The notes beneath the pieces are model-generated. The model worked only from the letters and a program-made list of their open reading frames with translations. It was not told where the DNA came from and ran no database searches. From a virus, in the IMG/VR virus record IMGVR_UViG_3300009103_000100, positions 1 through 33,737 of that record: a stretch of 33,737 nucleotides of DNA; one strand, 5' to 3'. Positions 3,842-31,973 of the stretch are shown here, one piece after another. The translations under genes and the position numbers were made by a program. Position 1 is the stretch's first letter, and every line of letters begins with the position of its first letter.

Positions 3842-4208
3842 GTTTTTCTTCTCCTGAATGTACTGGTAATGTAATATAATGTTTTTTGCGAACTATTTCA
3901 TAATTAACAAATTCCGAATCTAAGTTTCTAATTTGAGTATTCCCCCTGTCTAAAATTTGCGCTCTAGCCTCTTCGTATATTTCGTATATTTTCTTCTGTT
4001 CCGGCGTCCTTTCTTCTTCGGGTGCATCAAAACCCCACAAAAAACCAAAACTGTTTTCTAGGGTAGATAATGCACCAATCATAGTTGTTTGTATTTTCTT
4101 TTTAGCGGCCTTAAAAAGCCTATCCCTTGAAACATCCCTGTGCCTTTCTTCGCGCGCGGATTTTAAGTCTAAGGACTGTTTCAAAAATTTATTATATTCT
4201 TCCGCCAT
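3831..4208 (-). CDS. Small helical protein, putative tail assembly partner
   Basis: 125 residues, begins MAEEYNKFLKQSLDLKSARE. It is strongly charged and helical with a short hydrophobic centre (IGALSTLENSFGFLWGF, about residues 43-60). It overlaps the downstream 313-residue gene by 11 bases and touches the upstream 351-residue gene at a shared base, so the three are translationally linked. I do not recognise the family. By position between tail tube and tape measure it could be the shorter tail-assembly chaperone, but the sequence itself does not show this. Confidence 0.45.
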   Translation of the reverse strand: MAEEYNKFLKQSLDLKSAREERHRDVSRDRLFKAAKKKIQTTMIGALSTLENSFGFLWGFDAPEEERTPEQKKIYEIYEEARAQILDRGNTQIRNLDSEFVNYEIVRKKHYITLPVHSGEEKHDG

Positions 4209-5263
4209 TATCTTCTTCCTCCTTTGATCTTACTTACTGCGGCTTGATGGGACTCAATAGCTATATTTTGACGCACGTCGTCAAATTTAGTAAAACTAAT
4301 TTGCTCACCAGCAGCCTCTTCAATCTTACCTCGTCTATTGTGAACCGTTGCCTTGGCAACCGGATCGTTCAAATCATATATTTCGTTTGCGGCCTGTTGA
4401 TCACGAGCAACAAGATAAATCTCTTGAGAATTTTTAATCTTCGGATTCGTAATCATATCATCTATTTCTTTTTGTTTTTTATCTTTTTTATGTTTTCTTC
4501 TTTGTGCTATAAACCAACCATCTAGACAATCATCATCTTCGATCACCTTTTCATCTGGGGCATCGGGACTCTCGTTAACATTATCATACATGGTAGAATA
4601 TGAGCAAAGAGCAATCTGATCTTTTGTTAGCTCGTAAGCGGGCTTACCAAAAACACTAAATTGCTTTTTGCCAATGTGCCACATGGATCTCCAAGGATCT
4701 GTTCTGGAAATCTTTCGTATGACTTCTGGCTTTAATTGTTCAGAGCTATAATGGTCCATAATCACAGAAATAGGATATTGTTGCCAATCATAATGAGAAC
4801 CATTCTTGAATTTGGTTGTTTGTGAAATTATCCACATAGATCTAGAAAAAGATGCAACACCCTCACACGAAGCATGGTCTAATACATGCTTTTTCATCTT
4901 ATAATCCACCATTTGTCTTTCTTTATTTCTTATTTGTACTTTAAGCCCCTTAACTTTTCTTTTGTCGTAAAAAGATTGGTAGGCTTCAACCTTTAAGTCT
5001 TCAATGTCTGTCTCCAACTTTTTAGATTGTTTTTCGTAAAAAGGACTCCACAAATCATTTTCAACTAGTATATCAATTAAATCTTTTTTTAGATAACAGC
5101 CTCTAAAATAAGCTTTTTTATAAGCCTCATCATATACATCATAAGACTCTTCTACCAAATCTGCGCTAGGTTCGTATATATATAAAACAAGATCGCCCAG
5201 AACTAGCCTGAGACGACCTTGTAATATTCTAAATAAACTTTTTTCGTAGAAAGCATCATCCAT
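4208..5263 (-). CDS. Conserved-looking phage protein of the tail module, unknown function
   Basis: 351 residues, begins MDDAFYEKSLFRILQGRLRL. It is rich in Lys, Asp and Tyr, with helical segments (residues about 60-125) and a basic patch near residue 262 (AQRRKHKKDKKQKE). No catalytic motif, signal peptide or membrane segment is visible. It follows the tail-tube gene with a 26-base gap and is linked to the next gene by a one-base overlap. Its location suggests a tail-assembly or tail-completion job; that is inference only. Confidence 0.45.
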   Translation of the reverse strand: MDDAFYEKSLFRILQGRLRLVLGDLVLYIYEPSADLVEESYDVYDEAYKKAYFRGCYLKKDLIDILVENDLWSPFYEKQSKKLETDIEDLKVEAYQSFYDKRKVKGLKVQIRNKERQMVDYKMKKHVLDHASCEGVASFSRSMWIISQTTKFKNGSHYDWQQYPISVIMDHYSSEQLKPEVIRKISRTDPWRSMWHIGKKQFSVFGKPAYELTKDQIALCSYSTMYDNVNESPDAPDEKVIEDDDCLDGWFIAQRRKHKKDKKQKEIDDMITNPKIKNSQEIYLVARDQQAANEIYDLNDPVAKATVHNRRGKIEEAAGEQISFTKFDDVRQNIAIESHQAAVSKIKGGRR

Positions 5264-5289: not shown

Positions 5290-6327
5290 TTAAGCGTGAG
5301 TAGTACCGCCATTAACCGTTAAAACATTAAAGTTAGAGAACGAGTAAGTAACAGTAGCATTTCCACCACCAGTATCACCACCAGAATAAGAAACCGAAGA
5401 AAGCTTATTCTTACCGCTACCGGCATCACCCAAGTCAATAACAGTACCCGCAGTATCACGAATACAAATATCATTATTAGTTAGGTTCGGTGCGTTTCCA
5501 GATACGTTAACCAAGTCACCCGAAGTTGCAATAACTTCAAACTCAGCAGTAACTTCGATTGGGAAAGTTGCATATCTGTGATATGGTCCAAATCTACCAA
5601 GTTCTTGAATATTTTCTTGACCGAAATCGGTACTAACAGAAATACTCTGAACATGATACCCACTACCAATACCAATGGGATCATTACCCATTTGGGATCT
5701 AACAATTTCTGGTAGCGCAGAATCAGCAAGGTCAACATCCACACGACGAACAACACCAGAAAGTGGTGAATCAGTACCGTCAATATTTGTTGTCGGACCT
5801 TTTCCAGTTGGGGAGTGTGGTCCCCAAATACCAGTTGGATTAGCAACAACAGTAGATGTATTCCAAAATCTATCGTTACCAACAAGGGTAACAGATTCTG
5901 TTGCACTACCATCTATACTATAGTTGTAAGCAACAGAGCTGACGAACATACCAGAGTTCATGCATACGGTTCTTGGTAGACCCGTACCATGATCTTGGCC
6001 ATCATCAAAGACAGCTAAGTATACATCAGACCTTTGTTTTGAAGCATTTACAATACTTGTTTTACACGCACCACCAGTAGCCAAGTCATAAACCAGCTTG
6101 TAACCGTCAATAACCTTCTCTAAAGTTACCTCAATATCGGCAACCTCTTCGATGTTTTCGTAGATCTCAATCTGACCCATTTCAAACACTTGGTCAAGTG
6201 TAAATGTTGAACTCATTCCAACACTTTGAAGACCGTGGACAACATGGTCAGCCGTTAATAGCGCTGTTCCACGAGGCGCGATAGCAACAGACTGCACAGC
6301 GTAAAATATACGTTGATTATGTGCCAT
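5290..6327 (-). CDS. Putative major tail (tube) protein
   Basis: 345 residues, begins MAHNQRIFYAVQSVAIAPRG. It is beta-rich with few Cys, with a segment around residues 40-75 (FTLDQVFEMGQIEIYENIE) typical of tube-type proteins, and a C-terminal half rich in Gly, Ser and Thr. It has its own candidate promoter and a strong AGGAGA ribosome site six bases before ATG, consistent with high expression. It sits between neck genes and tape measure. A tube protein is the best fit; no contractile sheath gene is seen in this window. A different tail structural protein is possible. Confidence 0.6.
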   Translation of the reverse strand: MAHNQRIFYAVQSVAIAPRGTALLTADHVVHGLQSVGMSSTFTLDQVFEMGQIEIYENIEEVADIEVTLEKVIDGYKLVYDLATGGACKTSIVNASKQRSDVYLAVFDDGQDHGTGLPRTVCMNSGMFVSSVAYNYSIDGSATESVTLVGNDRFWNTSTVVANPTGIWGPHSPTGKGPTTNIDGTDSPLSGVVRRVDVDLADSALPEIVRSQMGNDPIGIGSGYHVQSISVSTDFGQENIQELGRFGPYHRYATFPIEVTAEFEVIATSGDLVNVSGNAPNLTNNDICIRDTAGTVIDLGDAGSGKNKLSSVSYSGGDTGGGNATVTYSFSNFNVLTVNGGTTHA

Positions 6328-7358: not shown

Positions 7359-7972
7359 TACTGAAGTACTCCTATTATCGCTGTTTCTATTTCTCTTGAT
7401 ACAGTCTGTATGGCCCTAGTAACAAAATTATTACTTTCGGTGCCAGAAAAAGAACTATTTACCTTAAATGGCTTCTGAGATTCTACCATATGCGCCCTAC
7501 CAGTACGACCAAATCGACCATACTCCACTCCAAAATTAGCTATTATAACAGAATCACCAAGAGTTAATAACCACTCTAACCATGGTATAGATCCACCATC
7601 TATTATTTGATGAGCCACAGGCAAAGAAAGAAGATTAGCATAATCAGAAGGCTGCATTGTTAAATCAAATCCCCCGCTTATTGTAGAAGAAGACGAGGTT
7701 GCTCTTCTGACCCTAATATCAAGACTAGACATCACTGACGAAACAATAGAATGAGAAGGATCAAAAGTTAAACCAAAATCAGCCATTAGCGTGCCCCCCA
7801 CCAAAGACCGAATTTCCTGACTATTATATAGGGCATTACCAACTATAGCCCTTATTCTAATACTAAGCGCTGGAAGATTTTGCCTCATGGTTCTATCAAA
7901 CGCGGTGGCCAAACCCCTATTTATTAGGGCGGAAATTTGCCGATCTGATTCTAAAATCCTTATATTAAGCAT
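7358..7972 (-). CDS. Putative tail completion / neck protein (HK97 gp10-like position)
   Basis: 204 residues. The N-terminal half is helical (IRAIVGNALYNSQEIRSLVG). The C-terminal half contains LSLPVAHQIIDGGSIPWLEW followed by LLTLGDSVII, a segment with GRFGRTGRAHMVES, and an ending NNFVTRAIQTVSREIETAII. This pattern recalls phage tail-completion proteins of the gp10 type that close the tail tube at the neck. It overlaps the upstream gene by 8 bases and the downstream gene by one. Support is architecture plus position; the exact family is not certain. Confidence 0.5.
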   Translation of the reverse strand: MLNIRILESDRQISALINRGLATAFDRTMRQNLPALSIRIRAIVGNALYNSQEIRSLVGGTLMADFGLTFDPSHSIVSSVMSSLDIRVRRATSSSSTISGGFDLTMQPSDYANLLSLPVAHQIIDGGSIPWLEWLLTLGDSVIIANFGVEYGRFGRTGRAHMVESQKPFKVNSSFSGTESNNFVTRAIQTVSREIETAIIGVLQ

Positions 7973-8477
7973 CTAATCTATTCCAAAAAGTGACTACGTA
8001 TTTAGTTGTATTTTGCTTAAACCCCTGTGGAAACGATGGTCCACTTTTTTCATATTTTGACGTATCATAATTTTCAATACCATCATATTTTGGTATCATA
8101 TATTTACATTGCTCAATTTTATTAAGATCGGTCATGTATGATATTGTTTGCACAGTGCCATCTGCAATATCAACAGGAATACCAACATTAAACCAAGATT
8201 TTCTATCCCAATAAATTCTTAAAGTAATATCATCACTAGCCTCAACAGCCTTATAGCCTTTCCCACCACAGTAGGGGCATGGCATCCCCCTCTCAAATGG
8301 GTAGGGGCCGCCGGGCCTATACAAGCTTACCGATTTATTTCTAGTACCCATTGTGTTCATATAGCAGTTAGGGCACTGTTCTCTTTTTTCTGGATATATT
8401 AATGTGGCGGTTCTAGTAAAAAGTAAAACCGCCTCATTGTAGATATCAAAGACACCGCTTGGTATTGTTATCGCCAT
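7965..8477 (-). CDS. Zinc-ribbon protein of the connector module (putative head-closure protein)
   Basis: 170 residues. A putative zinc ribbon spans residues 35-74: C35-x2-C38, then RPGGPYPFERGMPCPYCGGK with C67-x2-C70 followed by a Gly-rich turn like a DnaJ knuckle. The flanking parts are beta-rich (ITLRIYWDRKSWFN near residue 84). Position between the helical connector-like gene and the gp10-like gene suggests a stopper or head-closure protein. The same ribbon, including the GGPxPF sequence, recurs at the N-terminus of the actin-like ATPase at 27568-28803. The zinc site is read from the motif; the structural role is inferred. Confidence 0.5.
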   Translation of the reverse strand: MAITIPSGVFDIYNEAVLLFTRTATLIYPEKREQCPNCYMNTMGTRNKSVSLYRPGGPYPFERGMPCPYCGGKGYKAVEASDDITLRIYWDRKSWFNVGIPVDIADGTVQTISYMTDLNKIEQCKYMIPKYDGIENYDTSKYEKSGPSFPQGFKQNTTKYVVTFWNRLDA

Positions 8478-22864: not shown

Positions 22865-22876
22865 ACACAAAAATTA
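22858..22876 (-). promoter_or_regulatory. Candidate late promoter, copy 2 (portal)
   Basis: The minus strand reads TAATTTTTGTGTAATACTA, with the GTGTA core at 22868-22864, starting right at the large-terminase stop codon and about 50 bases from the portal ATG. Confidence 0.5.
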
Positions 22877-24853
22877 GTAAACGTCTTGTATTTTTTCAGC
22901 AAACCAATTAGGGCCGTGATATAGCTTGTCATTGTTGAATTTGCTGTTGGCATCAATGCGAGCAAATCCCCCAATAGCCCCATGTTTTTCAATTTCTTTT
23001 TCTATAGATAAGTGTCTAGCAGACATGTTTGCCATTAGCAAAGAAGAATAACGGTCCTTGCGTAATCTGCTTTTTCTACCCGCCGCTATTTTAACCTCCG
23101 GGGTATCCCATCTTTCCCTTCCGGTTGATGTCTGAGTCATAACAATCATAGATAACTCATCCTTGAGTTCTTCGATCTCCATAACACAATCTTCAAGAGT
23201 GTCATACCTTCTACCAGCCATTTTGTCTTGCTCAATTGAAAGACCAATACTAGCAGCATCAAAAAACGGAAACAATAATATCTTGTCCTCAAAATCTTTT
23301 CTCATGCCGTGATTAGCCTCGGCCAACCAATCGGCTCTTGCAAATTGACAAAGCCTCAAAATATGAAGTCCCGGCTTATCATCAGTATCTTTTTCTTTTT
23401 CCTCTATAACTGGCCATATGGGAACCTCACCCTCACCTATTTTATCTTTATCGTGAAGCGCCTCCATAACTGCAATACCACCACCCTGAGCATCTAGAGC
23501 AATTTCTGAGCATGGAAAAACCTTCATTAATTGTCTAATTTTTTTGGCGCAATAAGAATAAAAATCATCTTCATCGACAATTTTAGATCTTAGCTTGTCT
23601 TTGTGCTGTTGTCGATTCGTTGTCCAGCAGTGAGCTATTCTTCTGTGGTCTGAATGAACCTCTAAAACAACTATACTAAAATTATCAACTTCTGAGGCGG
23701 GATCAACGCCAAATACGTATTTTTTGTCCGAAGAGCCTTTGAGCATAGATTCAAAAGATATTTCTCCAGAATTCAAAATAACAGGCTTGCTAGGAGATGT
23801 GGTGCAAGATTCTAGAAGGCTTCTCTTAAAAAATCCCTGACTGTCGGTAGTAAAACAAGCCCCATACTCCATATTGTATATACCAGAATGGATTGTAGCC
23901 TTGGCCCTAGCCACCTGTCCATCATCCATAAACCCATCTGGAAGTTTATCAACAGGCAGACGAATCACAGAATATTCAGTCCAATCAAATTCGGGAGGGG
24001 GCTCCTCGCCAAACACCTCTTTAAGTTTAGCGGAATTGCCACGACTATTGGTTATTTGTCTGTATCTCTTCCAATAATCAGCAAAGTGGTTAAAATCATA
24101 ATAGGCGGTTCCCGATAAAATTATTTGGTTAGATTTCTCCATAATGGTATTTGACGCATCTTCTATGTTAACCCCTAGCTGATCTGCTTTCTTCTGTTTT
24201 GCTTTCCTTTTTACTTTTTCAATTGGTGACGCAGAAACCGCTGCAAAACCAGCAACAACGTTTTCAAATATTTCACGGGGAATAGAGGCAAATTCATCAG
24301 CAATAATGTCGTTTGCGCGCTGACCTCTAATTTTCGAGCCATCACCAAGGGGCAAACAGGTAATAGTGCTTTGATTGATATGCATAACACATCTGTCCAC
24401 ATCTCGTCTAGGACCACTATTAGTGCCACACAAATCCCTTAAAATCGGAGCATTTTTCCAAATGGTATCCATATACTCAAACAAGACTTTTGACTGTCTA
24501 AAAGCAGCACCAACAACAATTATTTTTCTGCGTGGCATAAACAGAGCACGAAGAAGGGGGTAAACTGAAAGTAGAAAAGATTTACCCATACCACGAGAAC
24601 CGATAAGCATTGGAAATTTTCTGTGCCATATCTCGTACAAAATAAGAGCTTGAAAAGGGGAAAGCTCGATGTTTAATATATATTTGCAAGCAAATGAAAA
24701 ATATTCTGGCCGCATCATTAGCCAAGCAATACGCTCCAGTAATTCGTCTCGACCAGCACCCTCCAATACAAACTCCATAGGATTAAATATATTAGATTCG
24801 TCAACCTCAATATTTAACCAAGCATCTTGTAATTTTTGTACATCTGATATCAT
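22874..24853 (-). CDS. terL: Terminase large subunit (packaging ATPase/nuclease)
   Basis: 659 residues. Walker A is GSRGMGKS (85-92), Walker B is DIIADE (182-187) with catalytic Glu187, and the coupling motif is LSGTAYYDF (247-). The RNase H-like nuclease half contains FGVDPASEVDNFSIVVLEV (Asp384), EIALDAQGGG (Asp454) and RKDRYSSLLMAN (Asp600), the likely metal-binding acids. It pumps DNA into the prohead and cuts concatemers. The start overlaps the ClpP-like gene by four bases (ATGA) with GGAG five bases upstream. All key motifs are present. The type of genome end it makes (cos or headful) cannot be read reliably from sequence by eye. Confidence 0.95.
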   Translation of the reverse strand: MISDVQKLQDAWLNIEVDESNIFNPMEFVLEGAGRDELLERIAWLMMRPEYFSFACKYILNIELSPFQALILYEIWHRKFPMLIGSRGMGKSFLLSVYPLLRALFMPRRKIIVVGAAFRQSKVLFEYMDTIWKNAPILRDLCGTNSGPRRDVDRCVMHINQSTITCLPLGDGSKIRGQRANDIIADEFASIPREIFENVVAGFAAVSASPIEKVKRKAKQKKADQLGVNIEDASNTIMEKSNQIILSGTAYYDFNHFADYWKRYRQITNSRGNSAKLKEVFGEEPPPEFDWTEYSVIRLPVDKLPDGFMDDGQVARAKATIHSGIYNMEYGACFTTDSQGFFKRSLLESCTTSPSKPVILNSGEISFESMLKGSSDKKYVFGVDPASEVDNFSIVVLEVHSDHRRIAHCWTTNRQQHKDKLRSKIVDEDDFYSYCAKKIRQLMKVFPCSEIALDAQGGGIAVMEALHDKDKIGEGEVPIWPVIEEKEKDTDDKPGLHILRLCQFARADWLAEANHGMRKDFEDKILLFPFFDAASIGLSIEQDKMAGRRYDTLEDCVMEIEELKDELSMIVMTQTSTGRERWDTPEVKIAAGRKSRLRKDRYSSLLMANMSARHLSIEKEIEKHGAIGGFARIDANSKFNNDKLYHGPNWFAEKIQDVY

Positions 24854-26216: not shown

Positions 26217-26486
26217 CTAGCCTCTTTTTATTAGCTCTAAGAAATACGTAATATAGTGATTTTCCCTACCCTTAACACTATCGTGACATTTGCAACATAG
26301 TGTTATCCCATTATCTACATCGTATCTCAAAGAAGCCGCAGAAGACCACTTCATAATATGATGCACGTTTAACCTTGTTCTCTTCCCCCTTTTTTTACAC
26401 ATCTTACATGTAAATTTATCTCTTTTTAAAACAGACATTCTAAACTGCTTGTATACTGGATCGTCGTAATTTCGCTTCTTTGACAT
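26217..26486 (-). CDS. Small HNH endonuclease
   Basis: 89 residues: C27-x2-C30, then LNVHHIMKWSS with the HH pair at 42-43, Asn59 in DVDNGITL, and CCKCHDS with a second Cys pair and His68. This is a complete HNH fold with a structural zinc. It starts 47 bases inside the end of gmd, using GGTGG six bases upstream. Small HNH proteins near terminase genes are known packaging partners (terminase-associated HNH) and are also carried as homing nucleases; position favours the first. Confidence 0.8.
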   Translation of the reverse strand: MSKKRNYDDPVYKQFRMSVLKRDKFTCKMCKKRGKRTRLNVHHIMKWSSAASLRYDVDNGITLCCKCHDSVKGRENHYITYFLELIKRG

Positions 26487-27558
26487 CGTGGTCCACCATG
26501 TTTTTTGCTAATTGTTCAAAACTGATTTTAGGGCTCCAATCCAATAATGTTTTTGCTTTCTGGGGAAGGCCCAATAAATAATCAACTTCAGCAGCCCTAT
26601 AGAATTCTGGATCGATTACTACATATTTTTCCCATTTTTGTATGCCCACAGTCTCAAATGAAGCCTCTAAAAAATCTCTTACACTATGGGTTTCTCCAGT
26701 AGCTATAACATAATCATCTGGCCTTTCCTGTTTGAGCATCAGGTACATGGCGCGTACATAATCTTTAGCGTGTCCCCAGTCTCTACGTGCGTCCAAATTA
26801 CCAAGCCTCAACTTTGGAAATTGAAAACCCTGATCCACATGCGTTCTTCCGGGGATGTATACCTCATTTTTATCAATATCAGCCAAATCTTCTGGGCCAA
26901 CATTGTGATACATCATCCATGCTACAAATTCGCCAATCCACTTTGTAATTTTTCTAGTTACAAAATTTTCACCGCGCCTCTCGCTTTCATGATTAAACAA
27001 AATGCCACTACAGGCAAAAATACCATAAGCATCTCTATAATTACGAACAAGATGATGAGCAGCCAATTTCGCAATAGCATATGGGCTTTGCGGCATAAAT
27101 GCAGTATTTTCATCTTGATATTTATGGCAACTTTTTCCAAATATAGGCTCAACTACTTCAGTATAGTTTTTACCAAACATTTCACTAGAGCTTGCTTGAT
27201 AAAATTTAATATCATCTTTTCGTGGGCTATACCTAATGGCTTCAAGTATATTAAGCACACCAGAAGCGGTTACGTCCCAAGTTAATGACGGTTGATTAAA
27301 AGAAGTCCCCACATGCGACTGGGCTGCTAAATTATATATTTCGTCTGGTGTATTCTCATCTATAACCTTGCTAACATTAAAAGCGTCTGTAATATCGCCT
27401 TCTACAATTTTAATTTTGGGCAGAATATGAGAAATTCTTTTGGTGGTATCCACGCTAACCCGCCTAGTTACGCCAACTATTTTATACCCCTTTTCCAAAA
27501 GAAGCTCAGCTAAATAACTACCATCTTGTCCTGTTATTCCGAAAATAACTGCTTTCAT
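26440..27558 (-). CDS. gmd: GDP-mannose 4,6-dehydratase
   Basis: 372 residues, the normal length of Gmd. The NAD(P) Rossmann motif is GITGQDGSYLAELLLEKGY (7-25). Catalytic residues lie in YQASSSEMFG and SPYAIAKLAAHH (the YxxxK motif), followed by GILFNHESERRGENFVTRKI, which is diagnostic for Gmd. It converts GDP-D-mannose to GDP-4-keto-6-deoxymannose, the branch point to GDP-fucose, GDP-rhamnose and GDP-perosamine. It lies nine bases after the actin-like gene and overlaps the HNH gene. No second-step reductase (fcl/wcaG type) is in this window. It is an auxiliary metabolic gene, probably acquired from a bacterium; the modified substrate is unknown. Confidence 0.95.
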   Translation of the reverse strand: MKAVIFGITGQDGSYLAELLLEKGYKIVGVTRRVSVDTTKRISHILPKIKIVEGDITDAFNVSKVIDENTPDEIYNLAAQSHVGTSFNQPSLTWDVTASGVLNILEAIRYSPRKDDIKFYQASSSEMFGKNYTEVVEPIFGKSCHKYQDENTAFMPQSPYAIAKLAAHHLVRNYRDAYGIFACSGILFNHESERRGENFVTRKITKWIGEFVAWMMYHNVGPEDLADIDKNEVYIPGRTHVDQGFQFPKLRLGNLDARRDWGHAKDYVRAMYLMLKQERPDDYVIATGETHSVRDFLEASFETVGIQKWEKYVVIDPEFYRAAEVDYLLGLPQKAKTLLDWSPKISFEQLAKNMVDHDVKEAKLRRSSIQAV

Positions 27559-27567
27559 ATGTTTTTC

Positions 27568-28803
27568 CTATGTTATATGGTTAGATATTTTAGCGGCTTG
27601 ATATAAACCGTTTGAAACCGCAAATAATGGTTCTTTGGCGTGTTTTACTTCTGAAATGGGTACTGGAAAATCTTTATCAATCAACTCTTTTAATCTTTCT
27701 GTAAAACCAGTGATCAACGAAGTTCCACCAGCTATCACTATAGGCATTTCTGTGATAACGTTTGGAAGTTTCTTTTTGGGTGTTTTCTCATAAAGCTCTT
27801 TAAATTGTTCTATCACGTAACTCAGCAGTGATTCGTAATAAATTGAAATTGCTCTTTGAATTCCTGTGGTTGCGTCGGTCAAGCTAAAATCTGCTTTCTC
27901 TTTTATTGCTGTAACAACGTTATTAGTTTCATCCGTGTGCTTAGCCGCATGAGCGTCTATCCAGTCCCCTCCCCTGCTCAAACTAAAGGAAAACACGGGA
28001 ATACCCATAAAAGCATAGACAATATTGCACATGCCCGCGCCAAAACTCATACCGATACCAGTATATTGGGTGTCTGCAAGCTCTGAGTAGACCACAGCCA
28101 AACCTTCTGTCATCACATTTATGTTTTTATATCCCAAATCTGTAAAAACCCCATTTAGGATTTGTTTGTGGTACTCAACATCAAAGTCGGCATCTATTGG
28201 TTCTGCGGGAACACAGTAGTACAATACATCATCGGGAGATTCTGAACGTCCCGCCACAGCTTTTATTAGCTCAGAAACCATAACGTTAGAAACAGGTTGT
28301 TTGGGATTCAAAACACCCTTAGACATTGGGCGTAAACACTCTTGATGAAATAAATTAGCAAATTTAAACGCATCATCTCCCAACACATAAAGCGTGCCAT
28401 CAGCCTTCACATAGTGCGCACCCGCATTTTTAAGCATTGTTTCACCAAATTGATTTGCAGACCCCTCCAAAAATTTTGATGGATTTATTTTGAAGAAAGC
28501 ATCTCTTATTTTTCTAAACACAGTACTCCCATTTTCTTCTTCTGCGCATGAAATAAAACCCGTACCTATATCTATACCTATTACTTTTTTATTATTATCG
28601 GTCATCGAATATGCCTCATTTTCTTGTATTTGTTTTTGATTTCCGCGACCGCTACATTTTGGGCAGATGCCATATACTGGAAAAGGCTGCGGACCTCCCT
28701 CTCTGTATGCTGATGGGCGACTCGTGATACTATCGAAGCTAAATCCTGTTGTTTTGCTTGGTACACAGTTGTCACACTGAAATTCCTCATGATTTGTGTT
28801 CAT
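27568..28803 (-). CDS. Actin-like ATPase (ParM/Alp superfamily) with N-terminal zinc ribbon
   Basis: 411 residues. Residues 10-54 are a putative zinc ribbon: C10-x2-C13, REGGPQPFPVYG, then CPKCSGRG with Cys47 and Cys50. Residues about 73-411 show the actin/Hsp70 ATPase pattern: phosphate-1 VIGIDIGTGFISCAEEE, phosphate-2-like GIGMSFGAGMCNIVYAF followed by SFSLSRGGDWIDAHAA, and the adenosine motif PIVIAGGTSLITGF. A filament-forming or switch ATPase is implied. An alternative start at Met67 (ATG 28605) has GAGG eight bases upstream and would remove the ribbon. I keep the long form because two CxxC pairs with this spacing are unlikely by chance. Confidence 0.75.
   Translation of the reverse strand: MNTNHEEFQCDNCVPSKTTGFSFDSITSRPSAYREGGPQPFPVYGICPKCSGRGNQKQIQENEAYSMTDNNKKVIGIDIGTGFISCAEEENGSTVFRKIRDAFFKINPSKFLEGSANQFGETMLKNAGAHYVKADGTLYVLGDDAFKFANLFHQECLRPMSKGVLNPKQPVSNVMVSELIKAVAGRSESPDDVLYYCVPAEPIDADFDVEYHKQILNGVFTDLGYKNINVMTEGLAVVYSELADTQYTGIGMSFGAGMCNIVYAFMGIPVFSFSLSRGGDWIDAHAAKHTDETNNVVTAIKEKADFSLTDATTGIQRAISIYYESLLSYVIEQFKELYEKTPKKKLPNVITEMPIVIAGGTSLITGFTERLKELIDKDFPVPISEVKHAKEPLFAVSNGLYQAAKISNHIT
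28602..28790 (-). CDS. Possible 62-residue overlapping gene (uncertain)
   Basis: A second reading frame over the zinc-ribbon segment of the actin-like gene. Its ATG overlaps the stop of the membrane-protein gene (ATGA at 28790-28787) and its TGA overlaps the ATG of the internal Met67 start (28605-28602). It encodes MRNFSVTTVYQAKQQDLASI and then a basic helix (AEIKNKYKKMRHIR). Perfect four-base overlaps at both ends are what an operon gene would show, but the overlapping frame contains a convincing zinc ribbon. Both cannot be the main product of this segment unless it is dual-coded. Confidence 0.25.
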   Translation of the reverse strand: MRNFSVTTVYQAKQQDLASIVSRVAHQHTEREVRSLFQYMASAQNVAVAEIKNKYKKMRHIR

Positions 28804-29065
28804 GTTTGTAAACTGTTCCTATCCTTTTTTCACCAAAAGACGTTTCTATTGTTGGTGCAGAAAAGGACTCTAAATTTTTATTATGCGTGGGTAAATCGTC
28901 TTCGAAATTTTGTACCCTTTTATCTTTTTCTCTTTGTTGTTTTTTGCCTTTGCCAAAATCAGTATATTTAGACAACACATACATAACCGAAAAAACCAAC
29001 CATGTAAAGCAAAGCGTAATAACAAAACATAATACTATTATTTGTCCTAAAAGTTCGTAAGACAT
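28787..29065 (-). CDS. Small single-pass membrane protein
   Basis: 92 residues. Residues about 7-31 form one strongly hydrophobic helix (IIVLCFVITLCFTWLVFSVM), followed by a basic stop-transfer segment (KYTDFGKGKKQQREKDKR) and a polar C-terminal tail, which should be cytoplasmic. There is no lipobox or spanin-type periplasmic part. It sits between the TerS-like gene and the actin-like ATPase, overlapping both. A membrane anchor for the neighbouring ATPase is a possibility suggested only by gene order. Confidence 0.6.
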   Translation of the reverse strand: MSYELLGQIIVLCFVITLCFTWLVFSVMYVLSKYTDFGKGKKQQREKDKRVQNFEDDLPTHNKNLESFSAPTIETSFGEKRIGTVYKHEHKS

Positions 29066-29862
29066 TATTCTTTACCTTTTGCTGTTTCTGGTGTTAAAAA
29101 GGGCTGATCTACTTGTCCGTCATTGTACTGCATGTATTCTGAAAGACGTTCTTTCTCGTTTTCCATCGCTAATCTCATTTTTTCCATATCTACACCAATC
29201 TTGTTACGGAACTGAGGATCGGTTGCAATTTTCTTTACAAGCGAAGCGAAAGTGAGCTTAGAATCCTCAATTGCTTTGACTCGCTGCTCTCTGGTGCCCT
29301 TGAGATCCTTCAGCATCGTCGCCTTGCGCGCTTGAAGATCTTTATAGTCTTTGGATAGGGTTTCCATTGAAGCTCTTAAAACGGCCACCTGACGCTCCAG
29401 ATTGACTATCAGATCCATATCGCGCTGATCTTTGTCTCTGGCCTTTTCTTCTTGCACCAATCTTTCAGCTAATGCAATCTCCTGTTGATTCTCTCGTTGG
29501 CCTTTGAGTATTCTGTTCATAAGTATTTCTAGTTTGATTGTATCGATTATTTGCATCTCTTCCGTATGGAATACATCATCTTTGAATTGGCTCCACATTT
29601 TCTTGAAATGAAATTCGAACATTTCCAACTCTTCAGAAGAAAATTGATTTGATAGCTCTCTATAGTATGGCTTCTCCTTCAACTCATTAGCAACCGCTGC
29701 CTCTTTTTTTTGTTTCGTTGAGAAGCCCACATTCTTCTTTATCCAATCACGTATCGAATCTGGATCACGATCTAGCTTCTCAGCTATGGACTCTGGAGAA
29801 AGAACCTCGGCATTCGCCTCGATAAATTCCATCTCTTCTTTTGAAAATCTACCCTTCTTCAT
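29065..29862 (-). CDS. Putative terminase small subunit (HTH plus coiled coil)
   Basis: 265 residues. Residues 4-47 form a homeodomain/Myb-like helix-turn-helix (RFSKEEMEFIEANAEVLSPE, SIAEKLDRDPDSIRDWIKK). Residues about 75-235 are long, charged helices, likely coiled coil (RDMDLIVNLERQVAVLRASM). HTH followed by an oligomerising helical domain is the small-terminase plan, and the gene lies in the packaging cluster between two HNH genes and terL. It is longer than many TerS proteins (150-190 residues). Another DNA-binding scaffold protein is possible. Confidence 0.5.
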   Translation of the reverse strand: MKKGRFSKEEMEFIEANAEVLSPESIAEKLDRDPDSIRDWIKKNVGFSTKQKKEAAVANELKEKPYYRELSNQFSSEELEMFEFHFKKMWSQFKDDVFHTEEMQIIDTIKLEILMNRILKGQRENQQEIALAERLVQEEKARDKDQRDMDLIVNLERQVAVLRASMETLSKDYKDLQARKATMLKDLKGTREQRVKAIEDSKLTFASLVKKIATDPQFRNKIGVDMEKMRLAMENEKERLSEYMQYNDGQVDQPFLTPETAKGKE

Positions 29863-30424
29863 ACTTAGCTCCTTTGGAGATGTTTTCTAAAGCCCATAAC
29901 GGCTGTAAGTTTGACCAGTGAAAGCATTTACGTTGCTGTTCCGGATCGGTCAGATCAAATGCTGCACAGGGTATGATATGATCTATGTGCCACCTACCAC
30001 GATTCTGTCTTGTCATTCCTTCTGTGAACTGAGATTCTAAGTGTAGCCAAAGTGCTCCTATCGTGCAGCCTAACAGCTCCATCGTGCTGGCTGATTTGCT
30101 TTTACCTTTTAATGCGTGGTTAACCCTAGATCTTAGGGTGCACGCCATCTTGAAATTTTCGTCGGAATTATACCTTTTCTTATTATATTCAATCTGATGT
30201 GCTATTTTTTTCTCCCTATTGGCTTCGTACCACTCCTTTGCTTGTTTGATATATCTCTCCCTGCTGGCTTGGTAGTATCCCTTTATTTTTTCTTTGTTGG
30301 CTTCGCGGTGTTTTTTCTTGCAGACCTTACAGCTCGGATAGTACCCATCTTTAGTTGCGGAATCTTTAGTAAAATATTCCTTCGTTTTTTCTTCTGCGCA
30401 CTTTGTGCATTTTTTTGTGTCCAT
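29849..30424 (-). CDS. HNH endonuclease with N-terminal zinc finger
   Basis: 191 residues. An N-terminal CxxC...CxxC finger (Cys6, Cys9, Cys32, Cys35) is followed by a Lys/Arg/Tyr-rich helix (YQASRERYIKQAKEWYEAN) and a C-terminal HNH domain with RWHIDHIIPCAAFDLTDPEQ then CFHWSNLQPLWALENISKGA. This is the frequent phage HNH type with 'IDHI-P' and 'N-LQPL' motifs. It overlaps the TerS-like gene by 14 bases. It may be a homing endonuclease or a terminase partner; no intron or intein is evident nearby. Confidence 0.8.
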   Translation of the reverse strand: MDTKKCTKCAEEKTKEYFTKDSATKDGYYPSCKVCKKKHREANKEKIKGYYQASRERYIKQAKEWYEANREKKIAHQIEYNKKRYNSDENFKMACTLRSRVNHALKGKSKSASTMELLGCTIGALWLHLESQFTEGMTRQNRGRWHIDHIIPCAAFDLTDPEQQRKCFHWSNLQPLWALENISKGAKYEEG

Positions 30425-30434
30425 TCCATTTTTC

Positions 30435-31973
30435 CTATACTGTCACGCATTTGGCCAAGTTTTTAGGTTTGTCAGGATTGATACCCCGCTCTACGGCTAT
30501 GTAATAAGCTAGCAACTGTAATACAATATTACACACTAAGGACTGAGAATATTTCTCCCCCGTATCCCTACACGAAAAAATAATATCACCCAAGCCCTCT
30601 AGTTTGTCTTTTATGGCGTCATGAGTAATTATCACCACAAATCCCTTTCTTGACTTAATTTCTTTTATATTAGAAATAGTTTCAAGGCGAAAATTCTCTG
30701 TGACAATAAAAAGGCTCGGAACCTTATAGTCCACGAGCGCAATTGGCCCATGTTTCATTTCCGACGCTGGCATACCCTCAGCGTGGACATAAGCCACCTC
30801 TTTAAACTTCAAAGCCCCCTCAAGAGCTATGGGATAGTTCTGTCTGTCGCCCAGAAACAGAAAGTGATCATAGCCTATAATTCTTTTTGCTATATCCTTA
30901 ATTTCGGACGCCCTCTTCATTAAGTTGTTAATTTGTTTAGTCATGGGCTCGACAAGCCCACATAACTTCATACACGAGGCCGTAAAGGTTTTAGTAGCTG
31001 CGACAGAGTATTCTGGCCCCACATCCAACAATATTTTCGCATATGCCATATCATACAACATAGAATCGCACGTATTGGTCATACATACAAAGTCATCAGG
31101 AACCGCCCCAATAATATCCTTAGTTTCTCCACTTTGGCTAATTGCTAAAACGTTTTGATGTAATCCGTAATAATTAGCTTGGCTAGCATGAATACATCGT
31201 GTAGATATGCCCTGTTCTTCCAAAAAGTAGGCCCCAAACATGGCCGCATATAAACTACTACCCGTCGCAATAATATCCATGATGTCACAATCAAAATTGT
31301 GTCGCTCCCCCCCATCTAGCTCGGCCTGCTCCCAAATCTCAGTAAACATTCTGTTTGGGCCATATTCGCGCACATTATTTGGAACGAGAGACGTTTGATT
31401 AGGTGAGACATCGCCCAGTAGCCTAAAACCGTTCTCTAATTTGCTAGCTTTATCACTAAAACCCGAAAGAGCATGAAGATCGCTACTAACATAACCATTT
31501 TCTGTCATAAACAACCTTTTCTTGCCTTTTGCCACACACCACACTTCACCCGTTTCACTATTCAAAAAAACAAAGGCGTTATCGCCCTCGATACTTTCGT
31601 AAACCTTTTTGGGGTTGCCCTGATAAAGCCACAATACATTTGCCAGCCATTTTGTGTCCAATATATGAGAAGGGGCATTTTCAACAATACCATTATGGAC
31701 AACATAAAAGTTTTTAAAGTTTTGAGGGTGCGCATTCTCAACCGTGACTTCCCCGTTGGTGGCCCATCTAACATGACCGATGCACAAATCCACATCTTCT
31801 TTTTCAAACGCCGCTCGATCTACAGAACCCAGCCCCTTAACAACATCAACTTTATCGCCCTTCAGGGCGGCGGCGTAACCGAAGCTGTCGTAGCCCCTGT
31901 ACTCAAGCCGCGACAGCCCCTTGTAGGTGTCTTTGAGTGAATTTGTATTTATAGATCCAAAAATACCACACAT
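30435..31973 (-). CDS. glmS: Glutamine-fructose-6-phosphate aminotransferase (shortened)
   Basis: 512 residues against about 610 in bacteria. The N-terminal glutaminase begins MCGIFGSI (Cys2 is the nucleophile after Met removal), with RLEYRGYDSFGYA, GHVRWATNGE and VVHNGIVEN. Two SIS sugar-isomerase domains follow: IIATGSSLYAAMFG, AISQSGETKDIIG and EGALKFKEVAYVHAEGMPAS then EMKHGPIALVDY. The C-terminus is PKNLAKCVTV, the conserved GlmS tail. Missing sequence is in the glutaminase and linker; all catalytic residues I can identify remain. It makes glucosamine-6-phosphate from fructose-6-phosphate and glutamine, the entry to UDP-GlcNAc. It follows the sigma gene by two bases. No glmS ribozyme is expected or seen. 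Confidence 0.9.
   Translation of the reverse strand: MCGIFGSINTNSLKDTYKGLSRLEYRGYDSFGYAAALKGDKVDVVKGLGSVDRAAFEKEDVDLCIGHVRWATNGEVTVENAHPQNFKNFYVVHNGIVENAPSHILDTKWLANVLWLYQGNPKKVYESIEGDNAFVFLNSETGEVWCVAKGKKRLFMTENGYVSSDLHALSGFSDKASKLENGFRLLGDVSPNQTSLVPNNVREYGPNRMFTEIWEQAELDGGERHNFDCDIMDIIATGSSLYAAMFGAYFLEEQGISTRCIHASQANYYGLHQNVLAISQSGETKDIIGAVPDDFVCMTNTCDSMLYDMAYAKILLDVGPEYSVAATKTFTASCMKLCGLVEPMTKQINNLMKRASEIKDIAKRIIGYDHFLFLGDRQNYPIALEGALKFKEVAYVHAEGMPASEMKHGPIALVDYKVPSLFIVTENFRLETISNIKEIKSRKGFVVIITHDAIKDKLEGLGDIIFSCRDTGEKYSQSLVCNIVLQLLAYYIAVERGINPDKPKNLAKCVTV

Follow-up and report, generated by a model that had tools for sequence, protein, structure and literature searches.

The window, that is the whole stretch of DNA of 33,737 nucleotides analysed here (IMG/VR record IMGVR_UViG_3300009103_000100, positions 1 to 33,737, from an uncultured phage), encodes an actin-like protein and a small membrane protein which together form a conserved two-gene cassette. 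The pair is a volactin-family actin in a new viral setting, with a type of partner that is undescribed in the literature searched. With somewhat better than even confidence, we read it as an accessory cytoskeletal cassette, made of a volactin actin and a membrane-anchored adaptor, which would serve as a spatial organiser of the infected cell. The features of the pair are collected in Table 1. Both genes had been recognised in the preliminary description of this DNA and are confirmed here; the membrane-protein gene comes first, and its frame overlaps that of the actin by 17 nt. The order given at the time (TerS-like gene, pair, terminase) stands in so far as the pair lies between the gene ahead of it (29065-29862) and TerL, but the HTH matches of that gene are weak, so the TerS-like label is a guess. 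Five genes separate the actin from TerL, coding for a GDP-mannose dehydratase, an HNH protein, an 80-aa ORF, an ERCC4 nuclease and a ClpP-type protease. As had also been stated, the window has no tubulin-like PhuZ: no tubulin/FtsZ domain (PF00091) was found in it or in six related viral records. A scan for promoters and terminators gave numbers of sites that were not above those of shuffled sequence.

Table 1. Features of the actin and membrane-protein genes, in positions of the window.
Feature	Residues	Position	Strand	Size or basis
Actin-like gene		27568-28803	-	411 aa
Small single-pass membrane protein gene, proposed filament adaptor/anchor		28787-29065	-	92 aa
Transmembrane helix	about 9-27	28985..29041	-	Kyte-Doolittle 2.7
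Tail motif P-T-IETSFGEKRIG-T-V, proposed actin-binding peptide	71-85	28811..28855	-	conserved in diverged orthologues
N-terminal extension of actin	1-66	28606..28803	-	alignment; disordered in model; dN/dS
Zinc-ribbon-like CDNC ... SAYREGGPQPF ... CPKC	10-50	28654..28776	-	conserved in L002, L003
Actin core, volactin family	67-411	27568..28605	-	PF25216; model; dN/dS 0.03
Phosphate-1 loop GIDIGT	76-81	28561..28578	-	D78, G80, T81 invariant in 30-33 family members
Phosphate-2 loop SFGAG	253-257	28033..28047	-	S253, G255, G257 invariant in phage, bacterial and archaeal members

The assignment of the actin to a family is clear from profile searches. Residues 75-404 match the Pfam family Volactin (PF25216) with E=9.6e-81 and 272 bits (cut-off 35), compared with E-values of 1.9e-9 for MreB_Mbl and 0.03 for salactin, and the ParM-type profile ALP_N stays under its cut-off (16.1 against 26.3 bits). 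NCBIfam scores are likewise far from their cut-offs (MamK 36/400, MreB 27/293, salactin 18/400 and BeeR 15/530 bits), and the match to the phrog_691 "partition protein" is weak (40 bits). Related viral records exceeded the PF25216 cut-off in 10 of 10 and in 13 of 14 cases, the exception being a gene cut by the end of its contig. An AlphaFold2 model of the actin was built on a 30-member alignment from which loci from phage records were left out, and most of its core is predicted with pLDDT >90. Among solved structures this core is closest to the MamK double filament (Z 27.8), followed by the BeeR filament (27.4), MreB (26.0) and F-actin (25.9). The actin fold read from the sequence is thus borne out by the volactin family and by a predicted fold closest to filament families, and none of the non-filament folds considered in the preliminary description (PilM, FtsA, Ppx) is the closest match; PilM and FtsA are absent among the structural matches listed, although such a listing alone does not exclude them. 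The window actin very probably forms filaments.

The phosphate-2 loop had been described as degenerate, and the letters SFGAG were read correctly. The aspartate expected at this position is however absent throughout the family, Haloferax gibbonsii volactin carries an identical SFGAGM, and the serine is invariant with the archaeal volactins included, so SFGAG is the family norm and not a sign of decay. Volactins of the genus Haloferax have this motif too, and the one of H. volcanii polymerises in cells. The core is under strong constraint (dN/dS 0.03 for the window against two relatives, L002 among them). Positions of the actin specific to its class were considered as markers of the adaptor site, and the nine found are scattered (129, 157, 166, 172, 197, 263, 295, 371 and 401) and therefore too few for mapping it. 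A separate observation concerns the volactin of another phage (L037:1612-3783), which holds an intein with HNH-like residues directly after the phosphate-2 loop (SFGAGM^C...HN^CN); the L016 volactin also bears an intein, in a truncated gene. Inteins favour active-site positions such as the one just behind this loop.

The N-terminal arm of the actin is less uniform. Its first 66 to 68 or so residues are disordered in the model (pLDDT <50), and the dN/dS of the extension (0.14-0.20) indicates that it is translated. The zinc-ribbon-like arm is replaced in sister phages by a conserved R..R(M/L)SG.Q motif and a linker. A segment of the type CxxC...GGPxPF...CPxC is common to the arm and to an ORF of the structural/tail region (7965-8477, 170 aa) and its orthologues in sister phages, a likeness in sequence which hints that the two may have a common virion-assembly target.

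The hydrophobic region of the membrane protein is modelled as a helix over residues 3-34 (pLDDT 83-94, about 90 in the hydrophobic part) and is followed by a stretch rich in Lys and Arg which, by the positive-inside rule, suggests that the C-terminal tail would face the cytoplasm. No Pfam DNA-binding domain was found in the protein, and the tail alone is disordered in the model, leaving no fold to search. Orthologues are only 27-75% identical to it, but their C-terminal P-x-IETSFG-x-x-RIG-x-V does not vary: P71, I73-G78, R81-G83 and V85 are unchanged across 12 diverged orthologues, while the remainder is variable. The dN/dS of the whole protein is about 0.24-0.28, and that of its last 26 residues is 0.10 (window against L002), so that the tail, like the actin core with its value of 0.03, is under purifying selection. 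The synonymous divergence of the membrane-protein gene, on the other hand, is about 0.5 and lies below that of the whole actin (window 28606-29065 and the corresponding regions in the pairs L006/L007 and L008/L009); in these two pairs the 5' end of the actin likewise has a lower dS than the full gene. A signal embedded in the nucleic acid, or recombination, may account for the low dS at the membrane-protein gene and the actin 5' end.

The preliminary description had tied the membrane protein to the actin, and the pairing extends across the whole clade. At least 16 other viral contigs have an orthologue of the membrane protein directly ahead of the actin (17 loci in its own BLAST cluster), and the close actin relatives in IMG/VR (74-86% identity) are all preceded by a membrane protein of 86-108 aa, whose gene overlaps the actin start by 11-47 nt. 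A DNA scan for the tail motif IETSFGxxRIG over 2.9 million IMG/VR viral contigs returned 18 contigs, and in all 18 a volactin gene follows directly, although one of these contigs (L182) ends after the first 37 or so matched volactin codons. More distant partners vary at their other end. The transmembrane (TM) partner of L014 has a slightly different tail (VTSSFDGKRIGQ), and the partners of L033 and L037 carry an IESSxDGK tail without a membrane helix, a pattern in which the tail stays and the other end changes. In a larger phage clade (actin identity about 37%) most partners are TM proteins of 98-118 aa with ISSAINKLKNMK-like tails, and huge phages (LR745208, L067, L069, L046 and others) have partners of 207-264 aa without a TM helix and with DDAASALKALRKK-like tails; the partner of the huge phage L020 also lacks the helix and has a similar tail. 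In five loci (L076, L078, L082, L086 and L088) the partner is 382 aa long, a domain of the trypsin-like protease type (GDSGGG) being apparently fused before a TM-plus-tail adaptor.

The same arrangement is found in archaea, where 67 of the 75 volactin genes have a multi-helix membrane protein, 200 aa long or longer, immediately upstream. The three archaeal upstream proteins tested all match DUF7139 (PF23600), and the tails of the haloarchaeal partners hold GVDxQVAGLKGLK and VDDQTAKLKELR segments. DUF7139 adjoins volactin in both haloarchaea and Archaeoglobi (loci L098-L172), and a literature search on this domain returned no paper. In the contigs of bacterial MAGs (L094, L096 and L097) the tail motif is carried by the gene that immediately follows the actin, and in four loci (L038, L041, L055 and L074) the motif-bearing gene is 0.7-2.1 kb upstream and does not adjoin the actin. 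The motif of the groups other than that of the window, bacterial MAGs included, can be written hDxAxxxLKxLK. Because a regular expression for LKxL was too strict for archaea, a tail profile with leave-one-group-out testing was used. Built from the other groups, the profile was applied to 43 loci with 6-29 genes each. It gave the gene near the actin the top rank in 35 of them and the second rank in 6, and missed it in 2, where an overlapping ORF had probably displaced the neighbour from the gene list; as the choice of tails had begun by eye, this ranking gives strong support but falls short of proof. The archaeal profile test is partly driven by composition: about half of its partners score above the 95th percentile of their own shuffles.

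The tail of the window clade, IETSFGxxRIG, cannot be recognised as a form of the LKxLK tail found in the other groups; the two are linked through their position and through the intermediates L014, L033 and L037. In the tree, the partners with IETSFG or SSFDGK tails are all found on one actin clade (20 rows, support 100/100) with a long branch leading to it, which suggests a single switch of the tail; long branches in the actin tree make its deep joins unsure. We give an about even chance to a general scheme according to which volactins of archaea, bacteria and phages all use an adjoining adaptor with a filament-binding tail and an exchangeable other end (DUF7139, TM helix or soluble), the window clade having a new tail code, IETSFGxxRIG, by which an archaeal-type actin cytoskeleton would be anchored in a bacterial membrane. 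The scheme predicts that DUF7139 is the membrane anchor of archaeal volactin and that it comes with a volactin-binding peptide.

Relatives of the actin are widespread amongst uncultured viruses, with at least 278 IMG/VR stretches. A search of 50,697 phage records found no isolate with a relative, the only matches being two uncultured huge-phage assemblies, and the plasmid matches are haloarchaeal megaplasmids. Proteins with sigma-70 region 2 scored above the cut-off in the window and in 6 of the 10 carrier records tested, and archaeal control genomes had none; bacterial hosts are therefore likely. The TerL of the window (22874-24853) has relatives in at least 600 IMG/VR stretches, indicating a very abundant phage group, and the annotated phage records nearest to it (Microcystis phage MaeS and Bacillus phages) are about 25% identical over most of the protein.

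The place of the cassette in the genome differs between carriers. In the window, L002 and L003 it is located between the HTH/coiled-coil gene and a nucleotide-sugar/nuclease/protease block ending in TerL. For comparison, 80 close TerL relatives were collected (best-segment identity 73-93%), in 40 of which the HTH gene and TerL keep their order, with 2.3-3.7 kb between them. Neither the actin nor its partner is present in any of these 40 segments, and no volactin was found anywhere on 18 of the relatives' contigs (about 17-139 kb, most of them fragments). In six sister phages (L004, L006, L007, L008, L009 and L011) the cassette is instead flanked by homologues of window genes 5290-6327 and 4208-5263, shortly ahead of the tape-measure block, and the actin is 77-84% identical whereas these flanking genes are 23-41% identical. 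Huge phages have it among genes related to the tail sheath, and the larger phage clade beside the clamp loader (L047). Most of the clade-B tail-region neighbours of the cassette are without a PHROG or Pfam match. The varied positions and the absence from relatives indicate that the cassette is accessory and movable, and it tends to sit among late genes. As the actin dS is 1.1-2.5, near saturation, between most of the carriers compared, constraint, and not recent transfer alone, explains its high identity. The suggestion made earlier, that the pair serves DNA packaging, is not upheld, and packaging was set aside as the main reading on account of the relatives that lack the cassette at the same locus.

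Our reading combines what was computed (family, fold class, gene pairing, conservation of the tail motif, purifying selection and the absence of the cassette at the packaging loci of relatives) with what we infer for the cassette, namely polymerisation, binding of the peptide to the filament, membrane topology, cargo and timing. The adaptor would have its single N-terminal helix in the host inner membrane, and its flexible cytoplasmic tail, ending in IETSFGxxRIGxV, would bind the actin, most likely at the filament end by analogy with ParR and ParM; the binding of the C-terminal peptide of ParR to ParM is a precedent (PDB 4A62, PMC3794156). Filaments could then grow from the membrane, or have their tips held there, much like volactin of Haloferax volcanii, which forms dynamic filaments in vivo with tips touching the membrane (PMC10869688). 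The variable N-terminal arm of the actin, a zinc-ribbon here, may serve as a further docking element, whose partner could be an intermediate of virion assembly. The role of the cassette would be the positioning of phage DNA or particles, or the reshaping of the host, as an accessory outside the packaging motor.

Four other explanations were weighed against this organiser. It is unlikely that the cassette is a purely host-directed device, whose tethered filaments change the shape of the host cell, or block its cytoskeleton, its division or superinfecting phages, and have no role in virion assembly. Its accessory presence in the window lineage and its strong constraint despite mobility would fit such a device, as would the control of cell shape by archaeal volactin (PMC10869688), but it is co-directional and tightly packed with late or structural genes in the window, the L004 group and the huge phages, which argues for late expression, and a PADLOC search gave no match. 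For the latter reason the cassette was also rejected as a defence system. A partition or DNA-positioning cassette of the ParMRC or AlpAC kind, in which the actin and a DNA-linking adaptor would move phage genomes, is distinctly unlikely. The adaptor-then-actin layout is that of alpAC (PMC4446434), the phrog_691 match is to a partition protein, and archaeal salactin, as quoted in PMC10869688, helps in DNA partitioning; against this, the partner is a membrane protein with no DNA-binding domain, the ALP_N profile is under its cut-off (16 vs 26 bits), and no centromere-like tandem or iterated repeats are found around the cassette at 26400-30500, a partition cassette with a centromere thereby being rejected.

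Quite improbable is a non-polymerising actin-fold ATPase that acts as a chaperone for tail or head assembly, with the membrane protein as its local recruiter. The missing phosphate-2 aspartate, the position among tail genes in several phages and the zinc-ribbon common to the actin arm and ORF 7965-8477 speak for it, while the nearest folds are filament formers and an archaeal member of the family whose loop has the identical sequence forms filaments in vivo. A packaging-linked anchoring device, whose filaments would hold proheads or DNA at the membrane by the terminase, is very improbable, for although the pair lies between the HTH/coiled-coil gene and the protease-TerL block in three carriers, it is missing from all 40 HTH-TerL relatives (TerL at least about 73% identical), from the 18 contigs of up to 139 kb, and is found by tail genes or the clamp loader elsewhere.

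The preferred reading, a membrane-anchored accessory cytoskeleton, can be placed amongst known systems. The closest is the volactin of H. volcanii (HVO_2015, PF25216), which belongs to the same family with a high score, has the same GxDxGT and SFGAG loops and, as in the window, a membrane-protein gene upstream; the window actin is about 40% identical to haloarchaeal volactins. It differs from them in belonging to viruses with sigma-70-like factors, whose hosts are probably bacterial, in having an N-terminal arm that is absent from the archaeal proteins, and in its partner, which has a single helix, 92 aa and another tail, whereas the archaeal one is a multi-helix DUF7139 protein. The type II system ParMRC of plasmid R1 also combines an actin filament with a co-encoded adaptor, and the C-terminal peptide of the window adaptor is proposed to bind the actin, but this adaptor is membrane-bound and not DNA-binding, centromere repeats are missing and the actin falls outside ParM/ALP_N by profile. 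The AlpAC system of prophage CGP3 in Corynebacterium glutamicum likewise has a phage-encoded actin with the adaptor gene directly upstream; AlpA however binds DNA repeats (alpS), while the window has a membrane protein and no repeats. MamK, BeeR and MreB are the closest solved structures (Z 26-28), although the window actin is far below the NCBIfam cut-offs and the gene context differs. PhuZ is similar as the idea of a phage-encoded cytoskeleton, but it is a tubulin and the window protein an actin. Among phages, the cytoskeletons known so far are tubulins of the PhuZ kind and a few actins of the ParM/Alp type, and the jumbo-phage reviews searched make no mention of a volactin-type phage actin. 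Volactin was previously characterised only in salt-loving archaea, and the cassette suggests that viruses encode a cytoskeleton about which little is known; together with its membrane anchor, the volactin-type actin would make up a third kind of phage filament system.
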